Positions 2,443 to 26,866 of a stretch of 27,473 bases of DNA are shown piece after piece. The DNA is from a virus. The stretch lies in IMG/VR virus record IMGVR_UViG_3300028388_005324, positions 1 through 27,473 of that record. One strand, 5' to 3'. Below the pieces are notes generated by a model. It was not told the origin of the DNA and did no database searches. It worked only from the letters and a program-made list of their open reading frames with translations. Within the stretch, counting starts at the first letter, position 1. The number at the start of each line of letters is the position of its first letter. Position numbers and translations under genes: made by a program.

Positions 2443-2452
2443 GGTAATCTCT
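2443..2452 (+). promoter_or_regulatory. Intergenic motif copy, GGTAATCTCT (one mismatch)
   Basis: It lies two bases after the tape measure stop and ends 18 bases before the ATG at 2471. It matches the window-wide consensus GGNANNCTA except for C in place of the last A. Promoter role is inferred. Confidence 0.4.
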
Positions 2453-2470
2453 TGTACCTGGGCAGATCGA

Positions 2471-2836
2471 ATGTTTAACTTTGGTACCGCAGAAGACAGT
2501 GAAGCCATGGTTCGCGATGTCGTTGACAGTGCGCTTGGCGTGGCTCACGAGGATTTCGGTGCCTGGGATATCACGATCGACGAGCTAAAGCACCACCTGC
2601 TCAGGTATAGGGTTTACTGGAAGACGGCCTACGGTATGGGCAAGACCGACGTGACGGATAAGTTCAAGAACATCTACGACTACCTGTTTACTGTTCTTGC
2701 GGCTCGCGACGACCACTTCAGGTCTTTTGTTCTTCATGGCAAGCATAGGTTCCTGGGAGGACCGAAACAGAGAGACTACTACCAAGATATTGTCAGGTCA
2801 CTTATTGATGAAGACGGTAAACTAGACAAGCCTTAG
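2471..2836 (+). CDS. Hypothetical tail-region protein, 121 aa
   Basis: I do not recognise this family. The protein is small, soluble-looking and rich in charged and aromatic residues (for example LKHHLLRYRVYWKTAYGMG), with no signal peptide or membrane segment. It lies between the tape measure gene and a probable distal-tail-type protein, a position where many long-tailed phages carry small tail-assembly or tail-tip proteins, so such a role is inferred from position only. The ATG at 2471 lies 18 bases after a copy of the recurrent intergenic motif, which supports this start. The last codons contain the next motif copy (GGTAAACTAG), so the regulatory element of the next gene is embedded in this coding region. 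Confidence 0.8.
   Translation: MFNFGTAEDSEAMVRDVVDSALGVAHEDFGAWDITIDELKHHLLRYRVYWKTAYGMGKTDVTDKFKNIYDYLFTVLAARDDHFRSFVLHGKHRFLGGPKQRDYYQDIVRSLIDEDGKLDKP
2816..2825 (+). promoter_or_regulatory. Motif copy GGTAAACTAG inside a gene end
   Basis: This exact consensus match sits in the last codons of the upstream gene (Gly-Lys-Leu-Asp) and ends 18 bases before the ATG at 2844. The same 10-mer recurs at 7291. Confidence 0.6.
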
Positions 2837-2843
2837 TCGTGAA

Positions 2844-3239
2844 ATGTCAATTGCCATCGCGTATACGGACGCAAATTCCACGACCTACGACGTAACTATC
2901 AAACAGTTTACGGATAATGCCATCCCTCGGCAGTACAACAATACTGCCAGCTTTGAGTATGGCCTTGCTGGGTCCACTCAACTAAATGGCCCTGCCTTCA
3001 GGCAAAAGAACACCTGGATTATTGACGCACTTATCCCGAGTGCCGATGCCCAGGTGATCGACAGCATGTTCAGAGCCTGGGATCAGGACAGGGCGGATGG
3101 CCGAAATGCCGCAATCGGATTAACTGATACGTGCTTCGGGGCCACTGTTAACGCGACGGCTGTGTTCAGCACAGCCCCGAGTTACACGTATAACGGTCCT
3201 AGCTACACTGGCGTTTCTTTCATTCTGAGCGAGGTGTGA
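2844..3239 (+). CDS. Minor tail protein, possibly distal tail type, 131 aa
   Basis: This is a small, beta-rich protein (ITYDVTIK-like start, PSYTYNGPSYTGVSFILSEV end) with no membrane segment. Its size, composition and position between the tape measure and a large hub-like protein fit minor tail or distal-tail-type proteins that connect the tube end to the tip. Assignment rests on context and overall look, not on a diagnostic motif. The ATG at 2844 lies 18 bases after a perfect motif copy. The stop is separated by a single base from the next ATG, so the two genes are probably co-transcribed and translationally coupled. Confidence 0.75.
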   Translation: MSIAIAYTDANSTTYDVTIKQFTDNAIPRQYNNTASFEYGLAGSTQLNGPAFRQKNTWIIDALIPSADAQVIDSMFRAWDQDRADGRNAAIGLTDTCFGATVNATAVFSTAPSYTYNGPSYTGVSFILSEV

Positions 3240-3240
3240 T

Positions 3241-5718
3241 ATGACATATCTTATCAATACGTCCGGCGCGGCTAGCGTCACCATCGGCGGAGTAGACTAC
3301 ACCAGCTCCCTTAGAGAATTTACCTGCTCTGACTCCAGCGCAAACCGGAACGGTTTTGTCGTCACCACGGGCGAAGTGGTATTAGGTAAGACCCTTGGAG
3401 GATTTAATCCTAAAGACTACGACAGAAATGCCTTCAGGCGGGGGCAGGTGGTGATCATCGACGTCGTTGCCGAGGGCACAACTGTCAGGCACCCTCGTGG
3501 ATACCTGTACGTCATCTCTACGACCTATGACGTCGCCTCTGAGACCATGACAGTCAGTGTCGGGTGTCAGATAGCCCTCTGCACTCTGACGGACAATATA
3601 GAGCCTCTGCTCCCCCTCGCTCCGACCCCTCTGGATCCAGCCAGGCAGAACATCCAGGCGGTTCAGGCCTCGTTCCAGGCAGACGGCAGCTACCTGTTCC
3701 AGAACAACCAGGGCCAGCTTGTTGCCAACAGATTCTTCGGTGGCGACACAGCAGGTAACACTGCGCCTGGTGAGTGGGTTTCCGTGCTCGGACAGAGTAC
3801 CGTTGACGTTGCCCCTCTTTCTGCCGGTTCGATCATCCCCGATGAAATCAGCCTGACTTACGCCGTTCCTACCGGAGCGCTGGCTGGAGACTTCACTGGC
3901 AAGGTCGATGAGTCCCTGTCTGATTCGTACTACTTCTTAGATTATCCCGCGATCTCCTTCGCTAGGGCGGCTGGAGACGAGGCGCCGGGTGTTGAGACCA
4001 TTGAGGTCGGCGATGGCGTGGTGGTTACAGTGAACAGGACCGGCGGAGACGACAATCCGTCTAACACAGGCAGCCTGGATACTGTTGGCAATGCCTACAC
4101 TCCCCCCGGCGGCGACGCTGGCACAGCAGTCTCTGCTGGAGGGCGCCAGAGCTCCTGTGGCAACGTTGCAGCACCCAGTGCGGGGGCTAGTGGCCCAGGC
4201 TCCTGTAACGAGGGCTACGAGACCGTACAGCAGGCCGTCTTCCTCCCCGCAAGAAGGAAGACCTACCAGATCACCTATTTCGACGGACCCGCCGGCCAAC
4301 AGAACAGGTCTGTATCCGATACCTATGTTCCCGCCGTGGAAGTGCAGGGCGGCTACTACGCTGACAAGTTCGCTGCCTGTCGCTTCACCTGGTCGGATGG
4401 ATGTAACCCCAACGGTAACTGCCCCTACGACGGCATGGACCTGGTACTGGCTTCACGGGTGATCACGACGACAGAGTTCGGCCCTGCTAACGAAGTCGTC
4501 AAGACCGAGACGGACACCTACGAGACCCTCCTCGGGGCTGCCAGCACCGCCGACTGGAGGAGTGGTAGCGTTGGGGGTAACCCTGTCGATTTCCGCTCGG
4601 ATCTCAAGCCCTATGCCATGTTCCTCTCGAAGAGGGTCACCGAGACTTACAGTAAGGATGGCGACAGGAATATCGTCACTCAGGTCCAGCTCGACAGCAT
4701 GGTATCGAGGAAGGGGGGAGATGGCAACCGCCAAAGCGAGTGGGCACAAGCCCTGACCTACGACGGCAGGCCTCAGGAGATGTTGGACAGGCAGACAATG
4801 CAGCCAACCATCAGCGTCGGTCCGGTGTTTACCAATATCCCCGACGTAGATGCCTTGTCCAATGGAATCGAGACGAAGCGTGTTCAAACGTCCGTGACAA
4901 CGGCAACGATTCCACTCCTGCCTGACTCTGTCAACTCGTCGACAACAGCTGTCCAAGACAAGATGGACACCCTGATTGTTTCGACGGGGAGGTACGAGCC
5001 TCTACCCGAAGGGGTGGGTCCGTATGTGCTGGAGGAGCGTGCTCCAGTTCCGTTCCTGTATACCACACAGGCAGAGATCGATGCAGCTGTTGGGATCTAC
5101 GGCGACTATATTCTCGGGTTCACGAAAGGTGACGCATTCGGCCTCTCTATCGTCGAGAGCCTCCGCAAAGACATCGTCAACAATTGGCGTCCCGGAATGC
5201 CTATGCGCTTCTCCGATGTCGATGGGGGCGTTGTACAGGCCATGCGGATGGACGCATGCCAGTGGGGCGTGACGCTGAACGAGTCTTTTGTGGGTTTCAA
5301 CGGGATCTGGCAAGGAACCTCTAACGGCACTGTTACGGTGACCAGTAATGTGCAGGGCAACACCACCCCAGGCGGAAGCCCTGCTCCAGATCCGGGTCCG
5401 GGTCCTTCCATCGAAATCACAGATGAAACTGCGGTCGACGGTGGCTCTTACATCATTGTTGTTCAACAAAATATGAACCTCACAGCGAATATAGCTGGAG
5501 CTGGACCTGGCGGGCGTCCTATCGTGCCCAACAATCCCCCCGGACTGGACGGATTGAATACAATCAACCTCAACACCATGGTCAGCTACGTGGCCGGCGT
5601 CGTGGCTGGTCCTGGCGGAGTATTGGCGACAGCTGGAAATGGTTCAATACCGGTGGAATACAATGGATCGCTAATTACTAGCGTCGGGGCTATCGTTATT
5701 AACGATGTCTTTGCTTAG
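3241..5718 (+). CDS. Tail-tip / baseplate hub-like protein, 825 aa
   Basis: This large protein directly follows the distal-tail-type gene, the classic place for a tail hub. Residues about 1-130 look like a compact beta domain (VTIGGVDYTSSLREFTC near the N-terminus, a conserved-looking GQVVIIDVV segment, then YLYVISTTYD), resembling hub N-domains. Residues about 250-330 are a Gly/Ser/Asn-rich, low-complexity stretch with scattered cysteines; further Cys pairs follow (CRFTWSDGCNPNGNCPYDG). Residues about 600-690 carry a second folded region ending FVGFNGIWQGTSNGTVTV. A Pro/Gly linker (PAPDPGPGPS, about 715-725) leads to a Gly/Asn-rich C-terminal domain of about 100 residues. No lytic enzyme motif is recognised. 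Hub function is inferred. Confidence 0.78.
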   Translation: MTYLINTSGAASVTIGGVDYTSSLREFTCSDSSANRNGFVVTTGEVVLGKTLGGFNPKDYDRNAFRRGQVVIIDVVAEGTTVRHPRGYLYVISTTYDVASETMTVSVGCQIALCTLTDNIEPLLPLAPTPLDPARQNIQAVQASFQADGSYLFQNNQGQLVANRFFGGDTAGNTAPGEWVSVLGQSTVDVAPLSAGSIIPDEISLTYAVPTGALAGDFTGKVDESLSDSYYFLDYPAISFARAAGDEAPGVETIEVGDGVVVTVNRTGGDDNPSNTGSLDTVGNAYTPPGGDAGTAVSAGGRQSSCGNVAAPSAGASGPGSCNEGYETVQQAVFLPARRKTYQITYFDGPAGQQNRSVSDTYVPAVEVQGGYYADKFAACRFTWSDGCNPNGNCPYDGMDLVLASRVITTTEFGPANEVVKTETDTYETLLGAASTADWRSGSVGGNPVDFRSDLKPYAMFLSKRVTETYSKDGDRNIVTQVQLDSMVSRKGGDGNRQSEWAQALTYDGRPQEMLDRQTMQPTISVGPVFTNIPDVDALSNGIETKRVQTSVTTATIPLLPDSVNSSTTAVQDKMDTLIVSTGRYEPLPEGVGPYVLEERAPVPFLYTTQAEIDAAVGIYGDYILGFTKGDAFGLSIVESLRKDIVNNWRPGMPMRFSDVDGGVVQAMRMDACQWGVTLNESFVGFNGIWQGTSNGTVTVTSNVQGNTTPGGSPAPDPGPGPSIEITDETAVDGGSYIIVVQQNMNLTANIAGAGPGGRPIVPNNPPGLDGLNTINLNTMVSYVAGVVAGPGGVLATAGNGSIPVEYNGSLITSVGAIVINDVFA

Positions 5719-5727
5719 GAAGCCTAC
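5718..5727 (+). promoter_or_regulatory. Motif copy GGAAGCCTAC
   Basis: The first G is the last base of the upstream TAG stop. It ends 18 bases before the ATG at 5746, and no Shine-Dalgarno sequence is evident in between. Confidence 0.6.
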
Positions 5728-5745
5728 GGCGATTTAGATGCTCCT

Positions 5746-6465
5746 ATGACAATCACTGCAAAGATATCTTCCGGCGAAGTTACTAGGCAAGTGACTGATC
5801 GCTATGTCGACGAGTATTTCGAGATCGCTCTTTTTAACGCGCCTGGAGTATCTTACAACCCTGGGGTTACCACTGACTCTAGCTGGATGGCGAACGAGGT
5901 CGCACTTGGAACCGGGGGGTACGACCGTCAGATCATCAAGTACGTAATTGCCGATGTTGCCAACTACTCCGACTTCGGCGTTGGTTTGGCCCAGAAAGCT
6001 GCTGTCTTCAGTCAGGACGGTGGAGGTACTGCTATAGAATTCACCCATGTGGGGATGCTGGAGGGCAGAGGAAATGTCGTCACCTTGGGCAGCACCGTAA
6101 CCCAGCCTGCCTCGTGGACTGACGGCACGTATACTGCTGTTCCTACGACTACCTTCGGGTCAGGTCTTGGCTGCACCCTTGATATCACGGTGACTGGAGG
6201 TAGCGCCAGCTTTGCGATCAACAACGCCGGTCGCGGTTACACGACCAGCGATGTCCTTGTTGTTGATTCCACTGTCTTAAATGCCATCGGGGCGTCGGCC
6301 GAATCTACCGAGCTGCGCTTGAACATCGCGGGCGCAACAGCCACTGGAGCAGATGCCATCGTTAGCGTTGCTCAGACGTCCTCTCCAGTAAGTCTTATCG
6401 CTGGCAATCAGGCTGTATTCTACTATAATATCAAGCAGTTCGGTTACTATTCCTCCTCGTCATGA
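5746..6465 (+). CDS. Tail-region structural protein, 239 aa, family unknown
   Basis: The protein is beta-rich with no membrane segment or signal. The N-terminal 90 residues (for example DEYFEIALFNAPGVSYNPG and DRQIIKYVIADVANYSDFGV) look like a compact domain I associate with cyanophage tail proteins. The C-terminal half is Thr/Ser/Gly/Ala-rich (TGGSASFAINNAGRGYTTSD). Its position among tail-tip genes suggests a virion component. A motif copy ends 18 bases before the ATG. Its stop overlaps the next gene's start as ATGA, implying coupled translation. Confidence 0.8.
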   Translation: MTITAKISSGEVTRQVTDRYVDEYFEIALFNAPGVSYNPGVTTDSSWMANEVALGTGGYDRQIIKYVIADVANYSDFGVGLAQKAAVFSQDGGGTAIEFTHVGMLEGRGNVVTLGSTVTQPASWTDGTYTAVPTTTFGSGLGCTLDITVTGGSASFAINNAGRGYTTSDVLVVDSTVLNAIGASAESTELRLNIAGATATGADAIVSVAQTSSPVSLIAGNQAVFYYNIKQFGYYSSSS

Positions 6466-6725: not shown

Positions 6726-6728
6726 GCT

Positions 6729-6941: not shown

Positions 6942-7300
6942 TGGCGATCGATCCAAACGTTGTAGCCACACGGCATCTGGACAAGAAAGAGCTCGGGTAT
7001 ATTCCCGTAAGGTTTACGAACACGATACCCCCTGCCTCGGTCACTAGCCAGATCACGGGTGAGGTACTGCTCGACCAGACGCCTCGGTTCGAGGGAGAGC
7101 TCTGCATCTATCAGGATTCACAGCAGAGGCTGGCGCGTGAAGGCACGCTCTATGTTGTTGTCAATATCGGTGGTACGCTCACCTGGAAGAGGATGGTGTT
7201 CGCGACGCATGCTGGCACCGGCCAGGCGTGGAACCCATACGCGAGTTACGGGAACAACCCCATCCCTACCCCCGTCAGGCCTGCGATCTCGGTAAACTAG
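6941..7300 (+). CDS. Tail-region protein, 119 aa, family unknown
   Basis: This is a soluble, beta-rich protein of unrecognised family, with segments such as ELGYIPVRFTNTIPPASV and GTLYVVVNIGGTLTWKRMVF. The C-terminus is Pro/Asn-rich. The start shares a base with the previous stop. Its last codons and TAG stop form a perfect copy of the recurrent motif (GGTAAACTAG), placed 21 bases before the large adhesin gene. Its place as last gene of the 5746-7300 group suggests it is a tail-tip part, perhaps at the fibre attachment site; this is inference. Confidence 0.72.
   Translation: MAIDPNVVATRHLDKKELGYIPVRFTNTIPPASVTSQITGEVLLDQTPRFEGELCIYQDSQQRLAREGTLYVVVNIGGTLTWKRMVFATHAGTGQAWNPYASYGNNPIPTPVRPAISVN
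7291..7300 (+). promoter_or_regulatory. Motif copy GGTAAACTAG overlapping a stop codon
   Basis: The copy contains the TAG stop of the upstream gene and ends 21 bases before the ATG at 7322. It is identical to the copy at 2816. Confidence 0.6.
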
Positions 7301-7321
7301 CCAAGTTCCGGCTAGATCGCA

Positions 7322-11509: not shown

Positions 11510-11519
11510 GGAAGCCTAG
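11510..11519 (+). promoter_or_regulatory. Motif copy GGAAGCCTAG
   Basis: It ends 18 bases before the ATG at 11538 and is followed by CCCAGCTT. A near-identical extension (TCCAGCTT) follows the copy at 14765. Confidence 0.65.
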
Positions 11520-11537: not shown

Positions 11538-14500
11538 ATGGCAGTCTTCCCTGATAAGATTGGTCTCAAGAACTCCACGGATGACTCGTCAGCGATTCTT
11601 GGGGCCATCTCCCCTGGGGGAAGCGAACCTATCGTCCCCGGCGAACTGGTCATCTCCAGGAGCAACGGCAGCGCTTCTTTGTACACACTGGACGCCAATA
11701 ACTCTGTAGTCAAGGTCGGGACAGAGGGGGCGGAAGCAGCCTCTCTCGACGCCTATATAATCCAGAATTTCGACAACGTTAGTACCGAAACAGCTTTCAG
11801 TACTGACTCCATGTTTGTCCCGGTTCCCGACACTGGGGACCCGAAGTTCGGGACAGGCGCGGTTCTTTTTGATCACAACAGCGACCTGACTAATTTCGCG
11901 CAGAACGTCGCCTTCGCAGGCGATAGACTCCCTGGTGCTCTGGGTACCTCGCAGTTCACGCTGGAGTTTTGGATTAAGACGGACATCGCCAACTGGTACA
12001 GGACCCTCAACGGAGCCGGCGGGCTTGGTCCTCAGGGCTTTATGAGTATCGTCGGCTACAAGGGCTTCCCACAGGGCCTGGGCGCCTTGAATGTGTATAT
12101 GGATGCTGGTACCCTCAACAACATCGGGTACGGCACGACAAGCCGCTCAGACGTCGCTCAGGGCGCCATATGCCTCGGGCTATGGCCAGGAGAGGACAGG
12201 GGCGCTCAGAGCATTGCAGGCCTGCCTAGCACGGGTGAGATTCTCTGCTCCGGCACCGTCAGCGTAGCGGATAACGTCTACCATCACGTCCTGATCCAGC
12301 ACGAGGGCTCTGGATCGTATTCCATGTATATCGACGGGGCCCAGGTCGACCGAGTCAGGCTCTCGGAGTCTCTTACCTTCGGGGTCTCCGAGCCTAGCGA
12401 TACGGCAGTGGTCGGGCCTTATGACTTGTATATTGGAGGCCAGAGCTCAGACGTTCTTGGTACAGGGCAGTCGGGTGACTTTGTCAATAGCTACGGTTTT
12501 AATGGCCTCATCGATTCGTTCCGTATCGTCAGGACATCCCTCTATCCCTCCTGGGGCACTATCCCCGTGCCGACCGGAAGCGCGGCCACGCCAGTGCTCG
12601 TTCCCCTGCCGTCACTCAAGAGCTTATCTGACACGGCAATCTCCCTCTCCCCTGCCAATAACTCGGTACTTCAGTACGACTCAAGTACTGAGACGTGGTA
12701 TGACGCAGCGGTCCCTGGGTACGATCTTTCTGGGAACAACTTGGATGACATCAATGACGTCACTATCTCAAATGTAGCTACGGGTCAGTACCTTAAGTGG
12801 GATGGGTCCGCCTGGGTCAACGACTCCGTAGACCTTGGAGACTTAAGCAACGTCGCTCCAGGAATACCGGCGATAGGCGATTTCCTTGTCTGGAACGGGA
12901 GTACCTACGAGAGGAACGCTAGCACTGTTTGCATTGTTTCCGCCACTGAGCCCACGACAAGGCCTGGGACAACCCTTATCAGGGACGGCGACCAGTGGCT
13001 TGACAGCAGTACGGGCGAATTCTACGTCAGGAATAATGGCGTCTTCGAACTTACCGCAGGCGGAGGTGGGGCCACACCAGGCGGTGGTTCGATTGACGAC
13101 CTGACAGACGTTGACACGACTACAGTCCCCCCGAACAGCGGGGATACTCTGGCATGGAATTCAGGTCTACAGATCTGGGAACCAGTCGCGCAACCACCCG
13201 CAAACATCTCCACCAGCAGCATTCACCAGCTGGCCGATGTGGAGGCTCTCGATATCGCTAGCAGGGTCGACGGGAATGTGCTCAAGTGGGTTGGAGGTAG
13301 TAATGTATATGCACTTGGATCTGTCAACTATGCCGAGATCGAGGGTACAACCCAGATCAGCAAGTTCCAGAATGACGTGGGTTACCTCGTCGATATCACT
13401 AGCCAGAAACTCGAAGATCTGGTGAATGTAGTCGGCAATCCCCCTTACCAGATGGGCGACATCCTGATTTACAACACGAACCTCAATCTTTACGAATATA
13501 AACAGAACAACTGGTTGCGTTACACCGACGTTTCCGATACCCCAAATGACGGCGATGCGATTACCTACAACAGCGCTCTTGGCAAGTGGGTTGCCGGCTC
13601 TGGCGGCGGTGGCGGTGCCACTAACCTTGACGGCCTGAGTGACGTCAGCAAGGATGCAAATGATGACATTGTATTCCAGGATGCCAACTCGCTAACGCTG
13701 GATGACGCCGCCGCAGTAACATACGGCAAGTTCAAGCTCGGATACGGTGATACTTCTACCGGCGCAGTGATCGGGGAACAGTTCGGCCTCACTCTCAAGA
13801 AGGACGGTTTGCCCGATGCCAGTGAGATCTGGCTCAGCCGTAGTTATGGCACTAAGATGGTACTTGGCGGTACTAGGTCGCCAGAAGACAATGGCATGGT
13901 TCTTCGCCTTCAGGGTCAGGAGCAAGAGAGGATCGATAGTAACAACAATTGCCGGCCTGTAGTCCGGTGGGAGAGCGGAGATTATACGTACCTCAATGAA
14001 ACTGGTAACTACATCTCACTGAGCATCCCTAATGGTCTCACCGAAAATACCGACTATGTTTTCCCTCCTGAGGACGGTTCCGATGGCTATAGCCTTAGGA
14101 CAGACGGTCAAGGGCGGACCTATTGGGCGCCTGCAACTGGCGTTCTGAATGGGGGTGTATGGGTAATTGATGCCGCGAATACGACTCCCAATTTTGCGAA
14201 CGGGGAGTTCAACTTCGATAACAACGACTTCGGCTTTGCGACGGAGATTCGACTCTCAATTATCACCTCGGACAACGCCAATGTTGCCAGGTTTATGGCC
14301 CAAATGGGCAGGAATAATGGCATCATTTCCGTCCAGGAGGTTAATCAGAACGAAACGCACCTCTTTAGGATTACAAGCGCAATCAACGACATGGGGAGCT
14401 TGATCTATGTATTTGGGATCGAGCTCATCGAGAGCACCAGCGGCCAGCTAATGTCAAGCATTGGAGAAACCTGTGAAATCAGGTTCTTCCCTAGCTCTAG

Positions 14501-14762
14501 TCGGCTGTCAGACGCGATTGATGTCTCTAGCAATACCCCGACGGACGGTAGTGTCTTGGTCTACAATGCCACTACTGGAGAATATGCTCCAGGGTCTGCC
14601 CCTGCTACTGGCGTCGGCCGTGGCGAGGGTGGCAACTTCGAGACCGGCAGTTCTCTCATACCCTTTGCGTCAGGTATCTACGGTGGCGGTGATTTCGAGA
14701 CAGGCGTGGCGGATTTGCCGATCGAACAAACCACTGGTGTCGATGGCGGCGTGTTTACCTGA
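11538..14762 (+). CDS. Large tail fibre with LamG-like lectin domain, 1074 aa
   Basis: Residues 1-60 resemble the short anchor module shared by the window's fibres, with PGELVISRSNGSASLYTLD. Residues about 75-270 look like a concanavalin/LamG domain: FTLEFWIKTDIANWYRT, then YHHVLIQHEGSGSYSMYIDG, then GLIDSFRIVRTSLYP, the usual order of LamG signatures. Residues about 360-730 contain several short fibre modules of the form L-x-DV ... G..L.W....W (for example GQYLKWDGSAWVNDSVDLGD). Residues about 730-1010 are a further beta-rich region. The last 50 residues repeat GGNFETG, GGDFETG and DGGVFT, a terminal tag shared with other fibres here. A host-glycan-binding role is inferred from the lectin-like fold. 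Confidence 0.85.
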   Translation: MAVFPDKIGLKNSTDDSSAILGAISPGGSEPIVPGELVISRSNGSASLYTLDANNSVVKVGTEGAEAASLDAYIIQNFDNVSTETAFSTDSMFVPVPDTGDPKFGTGAVLFDHNSDLTNFAQNVAFAGDRLPGALGTSQFTLEFWIKTDIANWYRTLNGAGGLGPQGFMSIVGYKGFPQGLGALNVYMDAGTLNNIGYGTTSRSDVAQGAICLGLWPGEDRGAQSIAGLPSTGEILCSGTVSVADNVYHHVLIQHEGSGSYSMYIDGAQVDRVRLSESLTFGVSEPSDTAVVGPYDLYIGGQSSDVLGTGQSGDFVNSYGFNGLIDSFRIVRTSLYPSWGTIPVPTGSAATPVLVPLPSLKSLSDTAISLSPANNSVLQYDSSTETWYDAAVPGYDLSGNNLDDINDVTISNVATGQYLKWDGSAWVNDSVDLGDLSNVAPGIPAIGDFLVWNGSTYERNASTVCIVSATEPTTRPGTTLIRDGDQWLDSSTGEFYVRNNGVFELTAGGGGATPGGGSIDDLTDVDTTTVPPNSGDTLAWNSGLQIWEPVAQPPANISTSSIHQLADVEALDIASRVDGNVLKWVGGSNVYALGSVNYAEIEGTTQISKFQNDVGYLVDITSQKLEDLVNVVGNPPYQMGDILIYNTNLNLYEYKQNNWLRYTDVSDTPNDGDAITYNSALGKWVAGSGGGGGATNLDGLSDVSKDANDDIVFQDANSLTLDDAAAVTYGKFKLGYGDTSTGAVIGEQFGLTLKKDGLPDASEIWLSRSYGTKMVLGGTRSPEDNGMVLRLQGQEQERIDSNNNCRPVVRWESGDYTYLNETGNYISLSIPNGLTENTDYVFPPEDGSDGYSLRTDGQGRTYWAPATGVLNGGVWVIDAANTTPNFANGEFNFDNNDFGFATEIRLSIITSDNANVARFMAQMGRNNGIISVQEVNQNETHLFRITSAINDMGSLIYVFGIELIESTSGQLMSSIGETCEIRFFPSSSRLSDAIDVSSNTPTDGSVLVYNATTGEYAPGSAPATGVGRGEGGNFETGSSLIPFASGIYGGGDFETGVADLPIEQTTGVDGGVFT

Positions 14763-14764
14763 TA

Positions 14765-14774
14765 GGCATCCTAG
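14765..14774 (+). promoter_or_regulatory. Motif copy GGCATCCTAG
   Basis: It lies two bases after the upstream TGA and ends 20 bases before the ATG at 14795. The identical 10-mer occurs at 22603. Confidence 0.65.
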
Positions 14775-14794: not shown

Positions 14795-16474
14795 ATGCCC
14801 GCACCTAACAACCGAGTCCCCGTTGTTGTAGCAAGGGGCAATAAGGCAACCCTAGACGCCAGTATCTCCGCCATTAAGGAGGGCGAAATCGTCCTAGCGA
14901 CCGACGAGGATATCCTGTATGCCAATATCGGGGGAACCCTGACTGCTGTTGGGCAAGCTGGCGGTGGAGGTGCTGCGGCCCTCAACGAGCTGACAGACGT
15001 TGACACAACGGGGCAGAACGAGACGAGCGCAAACTTCCTTCGGCTTTCTGGTGGCGTCTACAAGCCAAGCGCGGCTAACATCAAGCAAGACACCATTGCC
15101 GAGATAGAGAAGCTATCTGGGGCTGCGGCTGGCGCCGAGATGACGACCATCTGGGATGTGGGTGATTTCCTGTATGCCGACCAGGCGGCCTGGGAGACTG
15201 GTGGATGGACCTACATTGCCGGAAGCGGCAGTGTCGCCAGTCAAATTAACCTCACAGATACCGACTTCCCTTTCGACCCTTCGACCGTCTCGACCACATG
15301 GGCGACGGGGACGTACCTCGGAGTAGCCGTCTCTCCTTCTGCTTTGTGGACGGTTTCATCCGCCGGCTCCCTTTGCATCGCTAACGATGGTGTGAGCAGG
15401 GTTCAGGACTACAATCGTCAATTCAATAGCAGTATCTATAACACCATCGATATCGCGATTCAAGCTGTCTATGAACCCAGTTTTGCGGGAGCTGGCTTCA
15501 TGGAGGTTGTGGCTGATCAACAATGGGTTGTCCGCCTGCAGGTCTGCAATAACAATCAGTACAATCAGACTTACGGTTACATCGTAGAGTATATCTTCAA
15601 TGCAGATGGTACTATTCGCTGCAATGCCGGTCCCACGAACGACGCTCTGGTCACAGTTCCTTTCTGGGATAGCGACAACAGGTCTGGGGTCAGCCTTTCT
15701 GGTGACGAGATCCTAGGTCTCAATGGTTTTAACTGGGGCACAACCAACGTCGAGGCCCACTCAACTCTTGTCGGTGGTATCGCCGAGCCATTCTCTCTGG
15801 TCGACTTCAATGGCATTGACGTTACTGACGTTAAGGCAGGTGACTTGGCCCAGTTCGACGCAGATGGCAATATCACTCCGGGGCACGATGCCCTAAAAGA
15901 GATGACGGATATCAGCGCAAACGTTCCGATGCCGCTGACTAATGTCGAGAAAAGTACTGGTGGTTTCTTCGACGTTCCTGGTGCGTTCAGGTTCTTCTAC
16001 GGCGGAAACTTTACCGACCCGTTCAGTGGCGAATTCACCGTAAGCGGTACCAGTGTGTATTTTGACGATAGAGGATCGGCTCTCGATGGCAGTGGAACGT
16101 ACCTCCTGGGTCCCTGGTTCCGTACGTATGTAACAGGCAGTTCTATTGATTTCTGGTATTCAACAAGTGCAACTGGTCCATGGACTAAGCATACGGCAAC
16201 CGGCGGCCTTATCGAGCAGACTGTTGACGACACCTACCGACTTGACGGTGTTTCCACTAGCGGGAGCCTTTCCAGCAGCGGTTATTTCGCTTTCAGTGAC
16301 CCAGCCGCAACTGGTTATAACGATGGTGATGTTTTGGCTTGGGACACAACAGAAGGTGCGTGGATTACAAGGGGCAAAATTGACACCGACGACTTCAAGG
16401 CCTTGGTCGCAGCGTCTACCGATTTTGCTGATTTCCAGACAAGGGTTGCCGCTATCCCTAGCTTCCGCTCGTAG
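14795..16474 (+). CDS. Tail fibre, 559 aa, with shared N-terminal anchor module
   Basis: Residues 1-55 (start MPAPNNRVPVVVARG, then EGEIVLATDEDILYANIGG) closely resemble the starts of the genes at 23730 and 25058; the pattern is similar to the Mtd-N-type anchor domains that fix fibres to phage tails. A Gly linker and one L-x-DV fibre module (LNELTDVDTTGQN) follow at about 62-90. Residues about 115-540 are Ser/Thr/Gly-rich and beta-dominated, presumably the shaft and receptor-binding region, of no recognised family. The C-terminus is helical (DDFKALVAASTDFADFQTRV) and lacks the DGG tag found in four other fibres. A motif copy ends 20 bases before the ATG. Confidence 0.82.
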   Translation: MPAPNNRVPVVVARGNKATLDASISAIKEGEIVLATDEDILYANIGGTLTAVGQAGGGGAAALNELTDVDTTGQNETSANFLRLSGGVYKPSAANIKQDTIAEIEKLSGAAAGAEMTTIWDVGDFLYADQAAWETGGWTYIAGSGSVASQINLTDTDFPFDPSTVSTTWATGTYLGVAVSPSALWTVSSAGSLCIANDGVSRVQDYNRQFNSSIYNTIDIAIQAVYEPSFAGAGFMEVVADQQWVVRLQVCNNNQYNQTYGYIVEYIFNADGTIRCNAGPTNDALVTVPFWDSDNRSGVSLSGDEILGLNGFNWGTTNVEAHSTLVGGIAEPFSLVDFNGIDVTDVKAGDLAQFDADGNITPGHDALKEMTDISANVPMPLTNVEKSTGGFFDVPGAFRFFYGGNFTDPFSGEFTVSGTSVYFDDRGSALDGSGTYLLGPWFRTYVTGSSIDFWYSTSATGPWTKHTATGGLIEQTVDDTYRLDGVSTSGSLSSSGYFAFSDPAATGYNDGDVLAWDTTEGAWITRGKIDTDDFKALVAASTDFADFQTRVAAIPSFRS

Positions 16475-16483
16475 GTATTCTAC
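16474..16483 (+). promoter_or_regulatory. Motif copy GGTATTCTAC
   Basis: It starts on the last base of the upstream TAG and ends 19 bases before the ATG at 16503. It is followed by GCCAGC, like the extension at the 11510 and 14765 copies. Confidence 0.6.
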
Positions 16484-16881: not shown

Positions 16882-17325
16882 ATGGCGCTCTATGTGTCCA
16901 CCTTCGACGAAAACACTCCCTCAAAATGCAAGGCGCTCTGGGGCGTGAACGAGGGGCTTCTATTTGACTGTGCGAGCCCTTGCGGTCCATACGACAATCC
17001 TTTTGAGCTTGGCTACTTTCACCTGACGAGCTTCGACTGTGAACAGTACCCACCGAATCCCCAGGGCTACTATTATGATTACACCTACGTCAACCAGATA
17101 GGCGAGAGAGTCAATTTTGCCAGCCTCACTGAACCAGTCATTCAATTGGTGACAGACCAGACGCTTAACTGTGACATCAGCATCTACGGATCCTCGAAAA
17201 ACAGGACGATCTTTTCTTTTACGGGAGTCGAACTTGGCCAGATCCGGGAGATTGATGCATGTGGGGCGTTCACTCTTGCAACCGTGACCAGGAAAGAGAT
17301 TCAGACCAACGTATCCTTTATATAG
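16882..17325 (+). CDS. Hypothetical protein, 147 aa
   Basis: I do not recognise the family. The protein is acidic and aromatic-rich with several Cys (SKCKALWGVNEGLLFDCAS, FDCEQYPP, NCDISIYG, IDACGAFTLA) and many Tyr (GYYYDYTYV). The second half is beta-strand-like, compatible with a small virion protein. The reading frame extends upstream to 16837, but that would overlap the conserved Cys end of the previous gene; the ATG at 16882, one base after the previous stop, is the better start and gives MALYVSTFDENTPS. It is probably co-expressed with the 16503 gene, as no motif copy lies between them. Confidence 0.75.
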   Translation: MALYVSTFDENTPSKCKALWGVNEGLLFDCASPCGPYDNPFELGYFHLTSFDCEQYPPNPQGYYYDYTYVNQIGERVNFASLTEPVIQLVTDQTLNCDISIYGSSKNRTIFSFTGVELGQIREIDACGAFTLATVTRKEIQTNVSFI

Positions 17326-17334
17326 GCATACTAC
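17325..17334 (+). promoter_or_regulatory. Motif copy GGCATACTAC
   Basis: It starts on the last base of the upstream TAG. The gap to the scaffold ATG at 17374 is 39 bases, longer than usual, because a hairpin lies in between (17349-17365). Confidence 0.6.
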
Positions 17335-18114: not shown

Positions 18115-18124
18115 GGAATACTTA
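18115..18124 (+). promoter_or_regulatory. Motif copy GGAATACTTA upstream of the capsid gene
   Basis: It has one mismatch (CTT for CTA) and lies 8 bases downstream of the terminator. It is 121 bases before the capsid ATG, the longest gap in the window; no closer copy is seen. Confidence 0.4.
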
Positions 18125-18245
18125 GTATAGCAGCCCAGAAGGGAAACTCTGAGATGGAGTGGACTGGAGGGTGCGATTGCTGCGGCCGTTGAGACAACTG
18201 TCAAAGCGCTAACACCCAATCTTTGTTCATTCTTAGGTAATTATC
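18125..18245 (+). other. Long leader before the major capsid gene
   Basis: No convincing gene is seen here. If transcription starts at the motif at 18115, this would be a leader of about 115 bases. It holds a small hairpin (GTTG-AGA-CAAC, 18188-18198) and an AT-rich stretch just before the ATG. There is no strong Shine-Dalgarno sequence; TAGGTAA near 18234 is the closest. A role in high expression is inferred. Confidence 0.35.
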
Positions 18246-19190: not shown

Positions 19191-19200
19191 GGAAGTCTAT
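19191..19200 (+). promoter_or_regulatory. Motif copy GGAAGTCTAT
   Basis: It lies just downstream of the capsid terminator and ends 22 bases before the ATG at 19223. Confidence 0.55.
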
Positions 19201-20006: not shown

Positions 20007-20016
20007 GGTATTCTAG
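20007..20016 (+). promoter_or_regulatory. Motif copy GGTATTCTAG
   Basis: It lies two bases after the upstream TGA. The ATG at 20077 is 60 bases downstream, with a leader hairpin (20024-20049) in between. Confidence 0.6.
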
Positions 20017-20410: not shown

Positions 20411-20420
20411 GGTAACCTAA
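20411..20420 (+). promoter_or_regulatory. Motif copy GGTAACCTAA abutting a terminator
   Basis: It ends 24 bases before the ATG at 20445 and overlaps the first two bases of the terminator stem, so a transcript begun downstream would not carry the 5' arm. Confidence 0.55.
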
Positions 20421-20816: not shown

Positions 20817-20826
20817 GGAATTCTAG
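20817..20826 (+). promoter_or_regulatory. Motif copy GGAATTCTAG
   Basis: It ends 23 bases before the ATG at 20850, which supports the small gene that follows. Confidence 0.58.
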
Positions 20827-20849: not shown

Positions 20850-21023
20850 ATGGAAATTACCTACACTAACGGCCCTCGCTTCATTGATGGCGTTAACATC
20901 GACGCTGACGTAAATGCCGCCCCAGCAAAGGTAGACGAAAGATCGATCGTCGATCCTGTCACTGACTATAAAGGGAGGGGATACGAGCCTGGCCAGAAGA
21001 ATTTGGATGGGTCAGATGTCTAG
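20850..21023 (+). CDS. Small hypothetical protein, 57 aa
   Basis: This short frame encodes a polar, acidic, probably unstructured protein (start MEITYTNGPRFIDGVNIDAD, end YEPGQKNLDGSDV). It is of unrecognised family. Support comes from position: a motif copy ends 23 bases upstream, CAGG directly precedes the ATG, and its end overlaps the start of the next gene in another frame. It would be the first gene of a run of very small genes. Confidence 0.6.
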   Translation: MEITYTNGPRFIDGVNIDADVNAAPAKVDERSIVDPVTDYKGRGYEPGQKNLDGSDV

Positions 21024-21829: not shown

Positions 21830-21839
21830 GGGACCCTAG
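21830..21839 (+). promoter_or_regulatory. Motif copy GGGACCCTAG
   Basis: It ends 19 bases before the ATG at 21859 and lies in the 75-base divergent gap, 18 bases from the reverse-strand copy. Confidence 0.58.
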
Positions 21840-21858: not shown

Positions 21859-22122
21859 ATGGCTGCCAAGTCTAGATCTGCGCGGTATTACGCGAGCAAT
21901 CCAAAGGCTCGGGCGAAGAAGGCGAAGTACGATACAGCCTACCATTCGACGCCTAGCCGCAAGAAGTATCGGCGAGAATTGGCTGCAGAGCGTCGTCGTC
22001 GCGGCATTATGGGCAAAGGCGGCAAGGACGTCAGCCACATGAAGAATGGCAAGACGACCCTGGAGTCCCCATCCAAGAACAGGGCGCGGCAAGGTGCTGG
22101 TGGTCGCGCACGGAGGAAGTGA
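21859..22122 (+). CDS. Small very basic conserved phage protein, 87 aa
   Basis: The protein is strongly basic: MAAKSRSARYYASNPKARAK, then YDTAYHSTPSRKKYRRELAA, then KGGKDVSHMKNGK and SPSKNRARQGAGGRARRK. I recall this family, with SRSARYY, KYDTAYHSTPSRKKYR and KDxSH..NGK, as common in cyanophages and some algal viruses (perhaps DUF5872). The role is unproven; a DNA-binding or internal virion protein is plausible. Longer starts exist at 21784 and 21847, but ATG 21859 has GGAG six bases upstream and fits the family start. Its last base is shared with the next start (TGATG). Confidence 0.82.
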   Translation: MAAKSRSARYYASNPKARAKKAKYDTAYHSTPSRKKYRRELAAERRRRGIMGKGGKDVSHMKNGKTTLESPSKNRARQGAGGRARRK

Positions 22123-22593: not shown

Positions 22594-22602
22594 GTCGACG
22601 TC

Positions 22603-22612
22603 GGCATCCTAG
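22603..22612 (+). promoter_or_regulatory. Motif copy GGCATCCTAG
   Basis: It ends 20 bases before the ATG at 22633 and is identical to the copy at 14765. Confidence 0.65.
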
Positions 22613-22632
22613 CCTGAAAAAGGGTAATAGCA

Positions 22633-23691
22633 ATGATTCTCAGCTCTGCCGACATCTTGCGCGTTCTCGGCGGCAGTGAAATCATCCGCCTATCAGCCAA
22701 GCTTAAGATAGTTGACGCCAAGCCTGCGCTGAGCGGCGCCGAGGGATTATTTATATACGTTGGCAGGTTTCCCAGGCTCGAGGAGTTCGAGGCAACCTGG
22801 ACGATCTGGGTTGAGAGCGACGGCAGCGAACCCGACGACCTGGTGATTGCCGAGATTAAGAAGCTTCTACCAAAGGTCCAGACTCGCCCTGGCCTGATGA
22901 CCGAGGTCACTACGACGGACTTCCGCTCAGAGAGCACTCAGAGCGCCCCAGAGGCGCCGAGGCCCGCGAAGGCACAACCTAGCATGGACGCTTTCGAGGA
23001 GCGCTTCCAGGCCCTTGTGGAGGACGTAGAGGACCGAATGCTGCTCGTGACCTCTGGCAGGCCTGGCAAGGATGGTCAAGACGGCAAGGATGGTGCCGAC
23101 GGGCGCGATGGGCGCGACATCCTGGCTACCGAGACCGAGCTTGAAGATCTTGTCAACGTAGAGTCGAACATTGCTAAGGAGGACGGGCAGGTTCTGACCT
23201 GGAAGGATGGGGCCTGGCAAAACCTCTTCATTCCGCAGATCATCTCTAGCATCTCTGGCGGCAGTGGCAGTGGCGGTGGAACGACGATTAACAAGCTCGA
23301 CGACATCGGTGACGTTGATACTCCCGCTCCCGGCGACGGGTCGGTGCTGTCATACGACGCAGCCAGTGGTAATTGGATTGCAATAGCAGCGCCACCAGCG
23401 GACATCTCTGGCAGTAGCATCGACGACCTGTCTGATGTTGATACAACCACCACTGCTCCCTCGCTAAATCAGGCACTTGTTTGGGACGGTTCCAATTGGG
23501 TTCCTGGCGATGTAACCGTACCCGATGACGACGGCGGCGACTTCGGCGAGCTGCCCCCTCCAGATGGCGGAGACTTTGAAACTGGTACTACCACCTCGGT
23601 TCTTGCCTACCCCGTGGATGGCGGCAACTTCACCTCCGGTGCGACCAATGCCTATGGCGACTCCGTCTTTGATGGCGGGGAGCTTACTTGA
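22633..23691 (+). CDS. Fibre-like virion protein with collagen-like segment, 352 aa
   Basis: Residues 1-95 form a distinct N-terminal domain (MILSSADILRVLGGSEIIRL, then GLFIYVGRFPRLEEFEATW) unlike the other fibres; I recall similar domains in cyanophage structural proteins. After a Pro/Ala linker and a short helix, residues 142-162 are seven collagen-like G-X-Y triplets (GRPGKDGQDGKDGADG...). Two or three fibre modules follow (DLVNV, INKLDDIGDVDT, IDDLSDVDTTTT with L-x-W partners). The C-terminus carries DGGDFETG, DGGNFTSG and DGGELT, shared with the 11538 fibre. Trimeric fibre architecture is inferred. AAAGGG seven bases or so before the ATG may act as ribosome site. Confidence 0.82.
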   Translation: MILSSADILRVLGGSEIIRLSAKLKIVDAKPALSGAEGLFIYVGRFPRLEEFEATWTIWVESDGSEPDDLVIAEIKKLLPKVQTRPGLMTEVTTTDFRSESTQSAPEAPRPAKAQPSMDAFEERFQALVEDVEDRMLLVTSGRPGKDGQDGKDGADGRDGRDILATETELEDLVNVESNIAKEDGQVLTWKDGAWQNLFIPQIISSISGGSGSGGGTTINKLDDIGDVDTPAPGDGSVLSYDAASGNWIAIAAPPADISGSSIDDLSDVDTTTTAPSLNQALVWDGSNWVPGDVTVPDDDGGDFGELPPPDGGDFETGTTTSVLAYPVDGGNFTSGATNAYGDSVFDGGELT

Positions 23692-23698
23692 GCCTTCC

Positions 23699-23708
23699 GG
23701 AATCCTAG
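23699..23708 (+). promoter_or_regulatory. Motif copy GGAATCCTAG (first of a tandem pair)
   Basis: It ends 21 bases before the ATG at 23730. A second copy, CGAATCCTAG, lies 16 bases downstream. Confidence 0.62.
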
Positions 23709-23714
23709 CCTGAT

Positions 23715-23724
23715 CGAATCCTAG
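23715..23724 (+). promoter_or_regulatory. Second tandem motif copy CGAATCCTAG
   Basis: It differs from the upstream copy only in its first base and ends 5 bases before the ATG, too close to act like the others; it may be a duplication remnant. Confidence 0.35.
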
Positions 23725-23729
23725 TTGCC

Positions 23730-25058
23730 ATGCCCGTACCGACACCAAGAAATCCGATCACCCCAGCCCGTGGCAGCTATGCGACCCTGCTTGCCAATAT
23801 CGGCAGCTTGTCTGAGGGTGAGTTCGTTTGGGCGACCGACCTGAACCAGATCTTTGTTAAAGAGAGCGGGACCCTGGTCGCGCAGGCCGACTTCGGCACG
23901 CCAAACCTAGTTTTCGTTGGCACGAAAGCCGATTTTCCCGATCCTGTTGGTGGCGTGATCACCCTGGCGGACAATGCCACCTACTTCATTGCTGACACCG
24001 TCGATCTGACTGGCGATCGGCTGGTTGCTGGACAGAATACAACCATCATTGGCGGCTCTTCCGAGAACTGTCGCCTCAAGTCCACTGGCCTAGTAGGCAC
24101 CGCGCTTTTGAGCAGCGCCTGGACGCTACCCCTGCGGCACTTCACCATCGAGGCCGACGTTGCACTGAACCTGGATGCAACTGGCAACGCTGACCAGGCC
24201 CTCGACTGGTACGGCGTCAACTTCACTGACTGCGGCACTATCGGCACGATCAAGAACTACGGGAACTTCATCTACAACACGGGCGCCTTCCTGAACAGCA
24301 GCGGCCTCACGTTTGACGGCACGTTTGGCACGATCGCCTTTGCCGATAGCCTGCTTTCTGGGTCTTTTGACAATACTGTTGTTACGTTTGCGCCGACGCT
24401 GGTTGTCACCCGCCGCTTCCGCTCGATCTTTTCATCGGTCATCGCCCTCGGCAGCGGTGTCTACGCATTTGACGTCCAGAACGGTGCCGTGATTCCCGAC
24501 GAGGGGTTCATTCTCATTGAGTGCAACTTTACGCTAATTGCTGGCGCTACTGCAGTCAACGGCCTGGGCACGGTTGCCTCGTCCAACAAAATCCTGGCCA
24601 AGGGGTGCAAGGGTATTTCAAATACATCTGTCAACGGCCAGATGTACATGCAGAACAATACTACCGCTACTCCGATTGCAACCAGCGGCACCTTTGTCAA
24701 GGTTGAGGGTGTCACGACGCCATCTGCCGACAACGCCAAGTACTCCCACACCAACAACCGACTGACCTGCGATGCTACCAGGCTACGTAAGTATCTGATC
24801 CAAGCTTCCCTGTCATTCAGTTCTGGTAACAGCAACGAGTGTACATTCGGCTTCTACGATAGCAAGCTTGGCGATGTTCGGCTGCCCTCGCGAACCAAAT
24901 CAACCGCTGGTTCCAGTGGTCGGGCTGAGAACATTTCCTTCATGTGCGTTGTTGAGCATGAGCAGGGAGACTATATTGAGATCTGGTGTGCGAACAACAG
25001 CACGACTGTTGACGTGACCGTCGAAGAGCTCAATGTCGTGATCACGGAGCTGGGCTGA
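23730..25058 (+). CDS. Tail fibre/spike, beta-helix-like with C1q-like end, 442 aa
   Basis: Residues 1-55 carry the shared anchor module (MPVPTPRNPITPARG, then EGEFVWATDLNQIFVKESG). Residues about 75-310 have the rung-like repeats of a right-handed beta-helix (NTTIIGGSSENCRL, YGNFIYNTGAFLNSSGLTFD, FILIECNFTLIAGATAV). Residues about 315-442 look like a compact jelly-roll, C1q/TNF-like fibre head (LRKYLIQASLSFSSGN, then ENISFMCVVEHEQGDYIEIW). It was not matched to a known enzyme; no depolymerase residues could be identified by eye. Its stop overlaps the next start (TGATG). Confidence 0.82.
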   Translation: MPVPTPRNPITPARGSYATLLANIGSLSEGEFVWATDLNQIFVKESGTLVAQADFGTPNLVFVGTKADFPDPVGGVITLADNATYFIADTVDLTGDRLVAGQNTTIIGGSSENCRLKSTGLVGTALLSSAWTLPLRHFTIEADVALNLDATGNADQALDWYGVNFTDCGTIGTIKNYGNFIYNTGAFLNSSGLTFDGTFGTIAFADSLLSGSFDNTVVTFAPTLVVTRRFRSIFSSVIALGSGVYAFDVQNGAVIPDEGFILIECNFTLIAGATAVNGLGTVASSNKILAKGCKGISNTSVNGQMYMQNNTTATPIATSGTFVKVEGVTTPSADNAKYSHTNNRLTCDATRLRKYLIQASLSFSSGNSNECTFGFYDSKLGDVRLPSRTKSTAGSSGRAENISFMCVVEHEQGDYIEIWCANNSTTVDVTVEELNVVITELG

Positions 25059-25669
25059 TGGCCGCCCCTAACCCGAGAGTCCCTGTCAAGCCAGCGAGGG
25101 GCTACTATGCCGTCGTGCTCAACGATTTGGCGTCAATTCAGGAGGGGGAGCTATTTTATATCAAGGACCAGAACACCCTCTATGTCAAGGAAGGCGGAGC
25201 AGCAGTTCCCATTGTTGGCGCTGGCTCTCCCGTTACCAATAGCGTTCAGGCCGGTGATAACATTACCAAACTGGTCAACAATGCCGGCTACATTACGGCA
25301 TCGCAGGTGCCTGCCGACAGGGTGCAGTCCGTCAACGGCCAAGTGGGCATCGTGGTGGTGTCGGCTGACGATATTCCGACTGCCGGGACGACCAACAAGT
25401 TTGTCACCCAACAGGACCTGGACAAGTTGGCTGGCATCCAGGCCGGGGCAGAGGTTAACGAAGTAAATGAAGCACCCGAGGACGGCCAAGCGTACCTGAG
25501 GCAAAACGGCTCTTGGGTGCCTAACACGTCCGTGCCCGTTAACATCTCCAACAACACGCTTGGGGAATTGAGTGACGTCAATCTGCCCACTCCAGCCGCT
25601 GGGGAGGGTCTCATCTACAATGGGGTCGAGTGGGTGGCAGGTGGCGACTTTAACGGCGGCAGTTTCTAA
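25058..25669 (+). CDS. Short tail fibre, 203 aa, anchor plus DGG-type tail
   Basis: Residues 1-50 are the shared anchor module (MAAPNPRVPVKPARGYYA, then EGELFYIKDQNTLYVKEGG). Residues about 85-135 are the common fibre module SVNGQVGIVVVSADDI...NKF...LAGIQAGAEVNE. Residues about 140-203 hold an L-x-W element and LGELSDVNLPTPAAGEGLIY, ending GGDFNGGSF. It is translationally coupled to the 23730 spike, so the two products may assemble together, for example as a short adaptor. This is inference. Confidence 0.8.
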   Translation: MAAPNPRVPVKPARGYYAVVLNDLASIQEGELFYIKDQNTLYVKEGGAAVPIVGAGSPVTNSVQAGDNITKLVNNAGYITASQVPADRVQSVNGQVGIVVVSADDIPTAGTTNKFVTQQDLDKLAGIQAGAEVNEVNEAPEDGQAYLRQNGSWVPNTSVPVNISNNTLGELSDVNLPTPAAGEGLIYNGVEWVAGGDFNGGSF

Positions 25670-25675
25670 GATCCT

Positions 25676-25685
25676 GGCATACTAT
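25676..25685 (+). promoter_or_regulatory. Motif copy GGCATACTAT
   Basis: It ends 24 bases before the ATG at 25710; no Shine-Dalgarno sequence is evident in the gap. Confidence 0.58.
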
Positions 25686-25709
25686 AAAAGATCTGTCCCA
25701 TGAGCTGCG

Positions 25710-26843
25710 ATGTCGAACGCTATTCGCATTAAGAAAAGAGCAGCAGGCGGCGCGGCTGGAGCCCCAGCGTCACTCAGGAGTAGCGAGCTGGCCTTTAACG
25801 AGCAGGATATAACGCTCTATTACGGCTTCGGGGATGACGGATCCGCGAATGCTACCAGCATTCTTGCAATCGCTGGCGCTGGCGCCTACGTGAGCCTGGG
25901 CACCAACCAGTCGATTACTGGCGACAAAACCTTTACCGGATCGGTTGATCTCACTGGCGCTACTGTCACGGCAGCGACCCAGACCGCCGGTACAAACAAT
26001 ACGACAGTTGCCACGACGGCCTTTGTGACGGCCGCCATCCAGGGTGCCGGCGGTTATGTCGACCCTCTGACCACTGACGGGGATATCCTCATTCGCTCGG
26101 GCGGATCTACGACGCGATTGGGCATTGGCACGGCGGGCCAGGTCCTTACCGTATCCGGAGGACTCCCGTCTTGGCAAAACGCTACCGGTGGTGGGGGTAC
26201 TCTCAATATCGCGGCCGATGGTGCTTTTACTGGCTCTGTCGACCTTGACACTCAAACACTAGGTATCGTCGGTGGTACTGGCATCACCACGACTGGGTCG
26301 GGTCAGACGATCACCGTCAATCTGGACGATACCGCCGTTACTCCGAACTCCTACGGAGCTGCTGGCAGTGTCGCCACGTTCACGGTCGACCAGCAAGGCC
26401 GCTTGACTGCGGCGGCGACTACCGCAATTTCTATCACAAGCTCACAGGTCAGCGATCTGGCCACAACGCTCGGGGACTACGTCAGCAAGACGAACGCCGG
26501 CACCGAGACAATGACCGGCTCCCTGGTTGTTGGCGGTGATCTTACTGTCAATGGTACGACGACTACGATCAATACGACGGAGGTCCTTGTAGAAGACAAA
26601 AACATTGTCCTTGGCAATGTCACCTCGCCGACTGACGCGACCGCCGACGGTGGTGGTATTACACTTCTTGGCGCCACCAATAAAACGTTCAACTGGGTCG
26701 ATGCGACCGACGCTTGGACGTCCTCTGAGAACATTGACATAGCGGACACAAAGTCTTACTCGATGAACGGCACCGCAGTCTTGACTTACAATGGTACGAC
26801 CAAGATCTTGGACAATGTCGAGATCGACGGCGGGACCTTCTGA
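25710..26843 (+). CDS. Tail fibre / virion structural protein, 377 aa
   Basis: The first 55 residues are a diverged anchor module (MSNAIRIKKRAAGGAAGAPA, then SELAFNEQDITLYYGFGDDG). Residues about 70-270 are Thr/Gly-rich shaft modules (NQSITGDKTFTGSVDLTGAT, TVDQQGRLTAA, LGDYVSKTNAGTETMTGSLV). Residues about 272-377 (GDLTVNGTTTTINTTEVLVE, then DATADGGGITLLGATNKTFN and WVDATDAWTSSENIDIA) are a module I recall from many cyanophage and T4-type marine phage fibre-like proteins. It ends NVEIDGGTF, the DGG tag. The motif at 25676 and the downstream terminator make it its own unit. Confidence 0.85.
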   Translation: MSNAIRIKKRAAGGAAGAPASLRSSELAFNEQDITLYYGFGDDGSANATSILAIAGAGAYVSLGTNQSITGDKTFTGSVDLTGATVTAATQTAGTNNTTVATTAFVTAAIQGAGGYVDPLTTDGDILIRSGGSTTRLGIGTAGQVLTVSGGLPSWQNATGGGGTLNIAADGAFTGSVDLDTQTLGIVGGTGITTTGSGQTITVNLDDTAVTPNSYGAAGSVATFTVDQQGRLTAAATTAISITSSQVSDLATTLGDYVSKTNAGTETMTGSLVVGGDLTVNGTTTTINTTEVLVEDKNIVLGNVTSPTDATADGGGITLLGATNKTFNWVDATDAWTSSENIDIADTKSYSMNGTAVLTYNGTTKILDNVEIDGGTF

Positions 26844-26856
26844 TTTCTACTAAAAC

Positions 26857-26866
26857 GGAATACTAC
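26857..26866 (+). promoter_or_regulatory. Motif copy GGAATACTAC just before a terminator
   Basis: It lies two bases upstream of the terminator stem. The ATG at 26909 is 42 bases downstream. Confidence 0.55.

Follow-up and report, generated by a model that had tools for sequence, protein, structure and literature searches.

A recurrent ten-base element before the structural genes of cyanosiphoviruses is a candidate late promoter for a phage SigF-type sigma factor

A ten-base element that recurs in front of the structural genes of a 27.5-kb virus fragment (IMGVR_UViG_3300028388_005324; 27,473 nt, the whole stretch analysed and hereafter the window) very likely serves as a late promoter of the single-element, extended −10 type for a group 3 sigma factor of phage origin; we infer both the start site and the factor from comparison of related phages. 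Host RNA polymerase carrying a phage-encoded SigF-type sigma would read the element as a −10-type core, and each gene or gene cluster would have its own compact promoter. The earlier note on this DNA had read the element as a single-element late promoter of T4-like layout, used by a phage sigma-like factor, and the comparative evidence supports that reading. No earlier report of the motif was found in the literature searched, which covers few subscription journals.

Judged by similarity, the window is from a cyanosiphovirus related to the Synechococcus phages S-CBS2 and S-CRES1-3. It shares 82-83% identity with the S-CBS2/S-CRES relatives in the DNA of the capsid gene region and 87-90% in the capsid protein; outside the capsid region, a near-identity search gave no match to the relatives, from which the window has diverged too far. 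Its gene content (tape measure, tail, scaffold, capsid and fibre genes) is consistent with theirs. Several tail- or fibre-like genes of the window (22633-23691, 25058-25669, 11538-14762 and 14795-16474) match different parts of PHROG 9627, and these partial matches suggest that fibre modules have been shuffled or duplicated.

All 18 sequences listed by eye in the earlier note are present where it had placed them. The strict pattern GGNANNCTA(G/C) matches the window 15 times, 14 times on the forward strand and once on the reverse; 5.5 ± 2.3 matches on both strands are expected from shuffled windows, and none of 100 shuffles reached 15. For scoring, we trained a matrix only on S-CBS2, S-CRES1 and S-CRES3, leaving the window out, and set a cut-off of 10 bits, at which the window has 17 forward sites and one reverse site. 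By this measure, 17 of the 18 listed copies score at least 10 bits. The two copies that had been called weaker fare differently: GGAATACTTA at 18115-18124 scores 12.8 bits, whereas GGTAATCTCT at 2443-2452, 28 nt before the gene at 2471, scores only 6.5 bits and is doubtful. The list was also incomplete, since a forward copy inside a gene (12913) and a reverse copy (5′ end 9917) had been overlooked.

The copies, all of those named here being on the forward strand, stand close before start codons. GGTAAACTAG occurs at 2816-2825 (13.2 bits), inside the end of the previous gene and 28 nt before the gene at 2844, and again at 7291-7300 (14.9 bits), 31 nt before the large gene at 7322. Between them, GGAAGCCTAC at 5718-5727 (12.4 bits) overlaps the stop codon of the preceding gene and lies 28 nt upstream of the gene at 5746. 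GGAAGCCTAG at 11510-11519 (15.3 bits) precedes the gene at 11538 by 28 nt, and GGCATCCTAG is found both at 14765-14774, where it is the best copy of the window (16.3 bits; 30 nt before the gene at 14795), and at 22603-22612 (15.5 bits; 30 nt before the gene at 22633). They are joined by GGTATTCTAC at 16474-16483 (11.8 bits; 29 nt before the gene at 16503) and GGCATACTAC at 17325-17334 (14.0 bits; 49 nt before the scaffold gene at 17374). Two copies lie directly 3′ of a terminator-like hairpin, namely the one at 18115, 131 nt upstream of the major capsid gene, which starts at 18246, and GGAAGTCTAT at 19191-19200 (11.7 bits), 32 nt before the gene at 19223. GGTATTCTAG at 20007-20016 (13.9 bits) is 70 nt from the gene at 20077. 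At 20411-20420, GGTAACCTAA (11.6 bits) is followed directly by a GGGG...CCCC-T6 hairpin, a layout also present in relatives, and the likely start of its gene is 20445 (34 nt) rather than 20430. The remaining copies are GGAATTCTAG at 20817-20826 (10.6 bits; 33 nt before the gene at 20850), GGGACCCTAG at 21830-21839 (10.1 bits; likely start codon, read from the sequence, at 21859, 29 nt away), GGAATCCTAG at 23699-23708 (13.6 bits; 31 nt before the gene at 23730), GGCATACTAT at 25676-25685 (12.6 bits; 34 nt before the gene at 25710) and GGAATACTAC at 26857-26866 (12.1 bits), which has a terminator-like hairpin just downstream and lies 52 nt before the gene at 26909.

We then asked whether the motif is equally common inside genes, as the earlier note had advised, and the outcome clearly favours the motif. 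The four genomes compared (the window, S-CBS2, S-CRES1 and S-CRES3) together have 79 strict matches. Of these, 55 stand between 10 and 60 nt upstream of an annotated start, where 3.0 would be expected, and six control patterns (five shuffled, one reversed) gave 1-3 matches upstream of starts. The distance from element to start peaks at 28-31 nt and drops off abruptly below 27-28 nt, as would be expected if the leader had a minimum length; counted from the end of the element, the start codon is mostly 18-21 nt away, in line with the 18-24 bases first estimated. Genes that abut or overlap their predecessor had been said to go without a copy, and indeed window genes with a gap below 18 nt carry it in 2 of 9 cases compared with 13 of 18 for larger gaps; the relatives' genes without upstream room mostly lack it too. 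Shine-Dalgarno sequences are mostly absent, as had also been observed, with an SD-like sequence before 12 of 72 element-bearing genes versus 86 of 228 early genes.

The element is a feature of late genes across the group. When only late genes with 18 nt or more of free upstream sequence are counted, GGNANNCT precedes 23 of 31 in S-CBS2, 19 of 30 in S-CRES1 and 23 of 31 in S-CRES3, compared with 3 of 25, 5 of 22 and 4 of 21 early genes, respectively. Related contigs, sampled as 86 stretches (915 kb in all), contribute 634 sites on the coding strand and 74 on the other strand, and column-shuffled matrices gave 82-170 sites per strand on the same stretches; since many sites occupy homologous positions in related phages, these pooled counts overstate independence, a problem from which the figures within each genome are free. 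All 80 capsid-gene stretches contain the element, and the six sigma-gene stretches have only 0-3 forward sites each. Chance or coding bias as the source of the 10-mer is ruled out by the reverse-strand, reversed-pattern and column-shuffled controls. Taken together, the element is recurrent, lies on the coding strand and keeps a fixed short distance upstream of structural genes, as expected of a late-promoter class.

The consensus of the clade is T(A/C)GG-H-A-N-(A/C)-C-T-A-(G/C), followed by three pyrimidine-leaning bases and two purines. Its core is GG-N-A-NN-CT; the near-invariance of GG, A and CT is partly imposed by the search pattern, and the other columns are measured. No column exceeds 0.16 bit from −40 to −4, which indicates that there is no −35 element at fixed spacing. 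When the first G is numbered 0, purines occupy index 13 in 86% and index 14 in 81% of sites, and the pyrimidine-purine step peaks at index 13 (270 of 504 sites). This peak holds its position for start-codon distances from 28 to more than 45 nt, being weaker at long distances, and at index 13 it is missing from sites that no gene follows. In the window 14 of 14 sites have a purine at index 13, and in P-SS2 90% of sites have one at index 14. A signal anchored to the start codon was ruled out, as the purine peak tracks the element. The signature 13-14 nt after the first G thus resembles a transcription start site, and transcription would begin there, 4-5 nt after the element, with GG at about −14/−13, the A at −11/−10 and the T at −7/−6. 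The −10 element of sigma-70-family promoters contains two flipped bases. A start at index 13-14 would put the invariant A and T in the place of these bases and would give leaders typically of about 14-17 nt.

A candidate reader is encoded by the relatives. S-CBS2, S-CRES1, S-CRES3 and P-SS2 each have two sigma-like proteins, and in all four complete relatives the gene of the SigF-like one adjoins the terminase genes; the search for a sigma-like gene advised in the earlier note yielded a SigF-type (group 3) candidate in the relatives, and the window fragment itself has no sigma gene. In S-CRES1 the SigF-like sigma is gp20 and the RpoD-like one gp7. The best profile is NCBIfam SigF, followed by SigB/F/G and FliA, all below curated cut-offs. 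Region 2 is recognisable and similar to that of SigF/SigB/FliA. Region 4 found no match in the whole protein, one C-terminal fragment matching weakly at E 0.11, and Pfam gave nothing convincing for the C-terminal domain, which by eye only may be a region 4 remnant without the recognition helix. With region 4 absent or degenerate, a −35 element would be unneeded. The best match by sequence to a solved structure is chain H of 8x6g (E 7e-8), the S. aureus sigB-dependent open complex, and a predicted model matches sigma factors, with confidence in region 2 only and an overall pTM of 0.40.

The sigma and the element occur together beyond the closest relatives. The P-SS2 sigma has 51% identity over 150 residues to the relatives' SigF-like sigma, and the element is present in P-SS2 too, biased to GGAA. 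Two contigs with more diverged sigmas have their own form, (C/T)GGAA(C/G)CCT(A/G), before 17 of 77 and 11 of 59 ORFs, compared with 4 and 0 for the reversed pattern. In the late half of Microcystis phage Mwe-JY26 the element is not enriched. Among 26 contigs searched, the sigma gene was not found in ten, all fragments of at most 61 kb; one of them (G001, 60.7 kb) is probably a fragment, as terminase, portal and primase were also unmatched in the 53 kb examined. A scan of bacterial genomes for the SigF-like phage sigma returned one contig binned as a Proteobacteria MAG and a weak Myxococcota match. The former (L162, DGOV01000074.1) encodes a late sigma with a QSSLF tail and is perhaps a phage contig in the MAG bin. 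In S-CBS2 (NC_015463, 56832-57564) the late sigma gene is frame-shifted relative to all relatives, its second frame ending in LQGSLF, and the shift is either a sequencing error or real. In 2009 the group 3 sigma of P-SS2 (ORF 003) was predicted to read regulon-specific sequences, none of which was named, and the promoter search of its authors was directed at sigma-70 promoters only (PMC2784084). ORF 003 belongs to the same protein family and has the same place after the terminase genes as the sigma described here, from which it differs in having no QxxLF tail. We infer that the SigF-like sigma recognises the motif and that the genes behind it are expressed late.

It is improbable, although the most serious of the alternatives, that the element is a late promoter whose reader is instead a host sigma, for example SigF, or the second phage sigma, the RpoD/RpoS-like one (gp61 in S-CBS2, with counterparts in the other phages). 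Because all four complete relatives carry both phage sigmas, co-occurrence within the group cannot separate the two. However, the element is not enriched in KBS-S-2A and S-CBS3, cyanosiphoviruses whose sole sigma is of the group-2 type, and its GG-type core resembles SigF promoters rather than TATAAT. Synechocystis SigF reads TAGGC at −32 and GGTAA in the −12 region (PMC2758279). Cyanobacterial SigF promoters such as that of pilA1 (PMC2758279) share with the phage system a GG-type −12 region, the phage element beginning GG-H-A-N, and a group 3 SigF; they differ in needing the −32 box, whereas no such box stands upstream of the phage element and region 4 is not recognisable in the phage sigma. 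Host SigF would be expected to need TAGGC at −32, but no such box appears at a fixed spacing before the element.

The tight 28-31 nt to the start codon and the scarcity of Shine-Dalgarno sequences would also fit a signal that acts in RNA, to enhance translation or guide processing; the earlier note had offered both as alternatives, and transcription would then have to begin at some point before the element. We regard such a signal as very unlikely, as it is disfavoured by nested terminators, by the long leader of the capsid gene and by the start-site-like purine step anchored to the element. A terminator T-run stands between element and start codon at 34 non-identical sites, in most of which the 5′ arm of the hairpin begins at or before index 8-12; sometimes this arm is the element itself (GGTACCCTAG...GGGTA, then Ts). 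The folding energy is about −12 to −15 kcal/mol with the 5′ arm present and about −3 to 0 kcal/mol for RNA begun at index 13. Such RNA, lacking the 5′ arm, would escape the terminator, and transcripts from upstream would be terminated, which makes an element acting inside RNA hard to explain. There are exceptions: at 26857 in the window and 38745 in S-CBS2 only part of the hairpin is lost, and three sites have all of it downstream. Under the promoter reading, the promoter would sometimes lie inside the terminator of the previous operon, so that only incoming transcripts are terminated.

The capsid gene adds a different kind of evidence against an RNA-level signal: here a structured leader separates element and start codon, which are about 130-140 nt apart. 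An equivalent element occurs at −129 to −144 in most of the relatives L009-L088. In the window the leader RNA of the major capsid gene spans approximately 18129-18245 on the forward strand, downstream of the promoter element; in the same relatives the leader of ~110 nt has 17 consensus pairs, ten of them with changes on both sides (26 sequences). A search of Rfam gave no match on the leader, a possible novel cis-regulatory RNA for capsid genes in cyanosiphoviruses. In the capsid promoters the seventh base is often A instead of C (GGCATAATAG, GGTATTATAG); such promoters are hybrids with a TATAAT-like −10 and may be read by two sigmas.

A promoter for an RNA polymerase encoded by the phage is an extremely unlikely reading of the element: S-CBS2 gp34 is annotated as 'RNA polymerase-like' and P-SS2 gp85 as 'DNA-directed RNAP', but both are small (139 and 185 aa by coordinates), lie among structural genes and are implausible polymerases, and the relatives have a dedicated sigma and an element that resembles a sigma −10.

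Most of the SigF-type sigmas end in a conserved motif. Among the 48 distinct sigmas, 40 carry Q-x-x-(L/V)-F either at the very C-terminus or no more than a few residues from it; 19 end exactly in QGSLF, and QPSLF, QASLF, QGNLF, QQSLF and others also occur. In the alignment, 37 rows extend into the tail and all of them have its Q and F, and the adjoining C-terminal domain (166-230) has a mean column entropy of 2.07 bits compared with 0.51 for residues 36-98. Only two other proteins among 493 in five genomes end similarly. The clamp-binding consensus is QL[S/D]LF, more generally QxxLF, and is C-terminal in PolC (PMC12309361). Such a tail would probably anchor the holoenzyme on the sliding clamp of the host. 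A bacterial-type clamp gene was found in none of eight records by a search that was positive in 11 control genomes, which makes the host clamp the natural partner. The tail is absent from P-SS2 (L101) and from divergent sigmas (L146-L150 and L156-L159). Since P-SS2 has the element without the tail, the element as such does not depend on the tail. Where it is present, the tail would bring the holoenzyme to the host clamp and couple late transcription to DNA replication.

The T4 late system (gp55/gp33/gp45; PMC7892883, PMC2988020) is the closest parallel in layout. T4 gp55 consists of a region 2 domain and a clamp-binding tail, loss of which impairs but does not abolish activation (PMC7892883). 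Both systems combine a single −10-type element with a small sigma without region 4 and serve structural genes, and most phage sigmas here have what appears to be a C-terminal clamp-binding motif as well. However, the element here, GGNANNCT, is unrelated to the AT-rich box of T4, the SigF-type sigma matches SigF/SigB/FliA and is not recognisably related to gp55, no counterpart of gp33 was identified, and the clamp would be that of the host whereas T4 encodes its own. By sequence comparison, then, the cyanophage system is not a member of the T4 late class, as it has neither a gp55 homologue nor an AT-rich element. The late motif of Ma-LMM01, a cyanophage for which such a motif is published, was set aside as a match because its promoters are sigma-70-like (PMC5780444).

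We give somewhat better than even chances to the broader proposal that these phages have a replication-coupled late transcription of their own, independent of T4, in which a SigF-type sigma, having shed −35 recognition and acquired a QxxLF tail, uses the host beta clamp to serve single-element promoters, some of them nested in terminators. If the tail does bind the host clamp, clamp-coupled late logic arose at least twice. The analysis supplies a probable regulon and a consensus for the group 3 sigma across the whole cyanosiphovirus group, and the compact pair of −10-only promoter and sigma might be of use for orthogonal gene expression in cyanobacteria.
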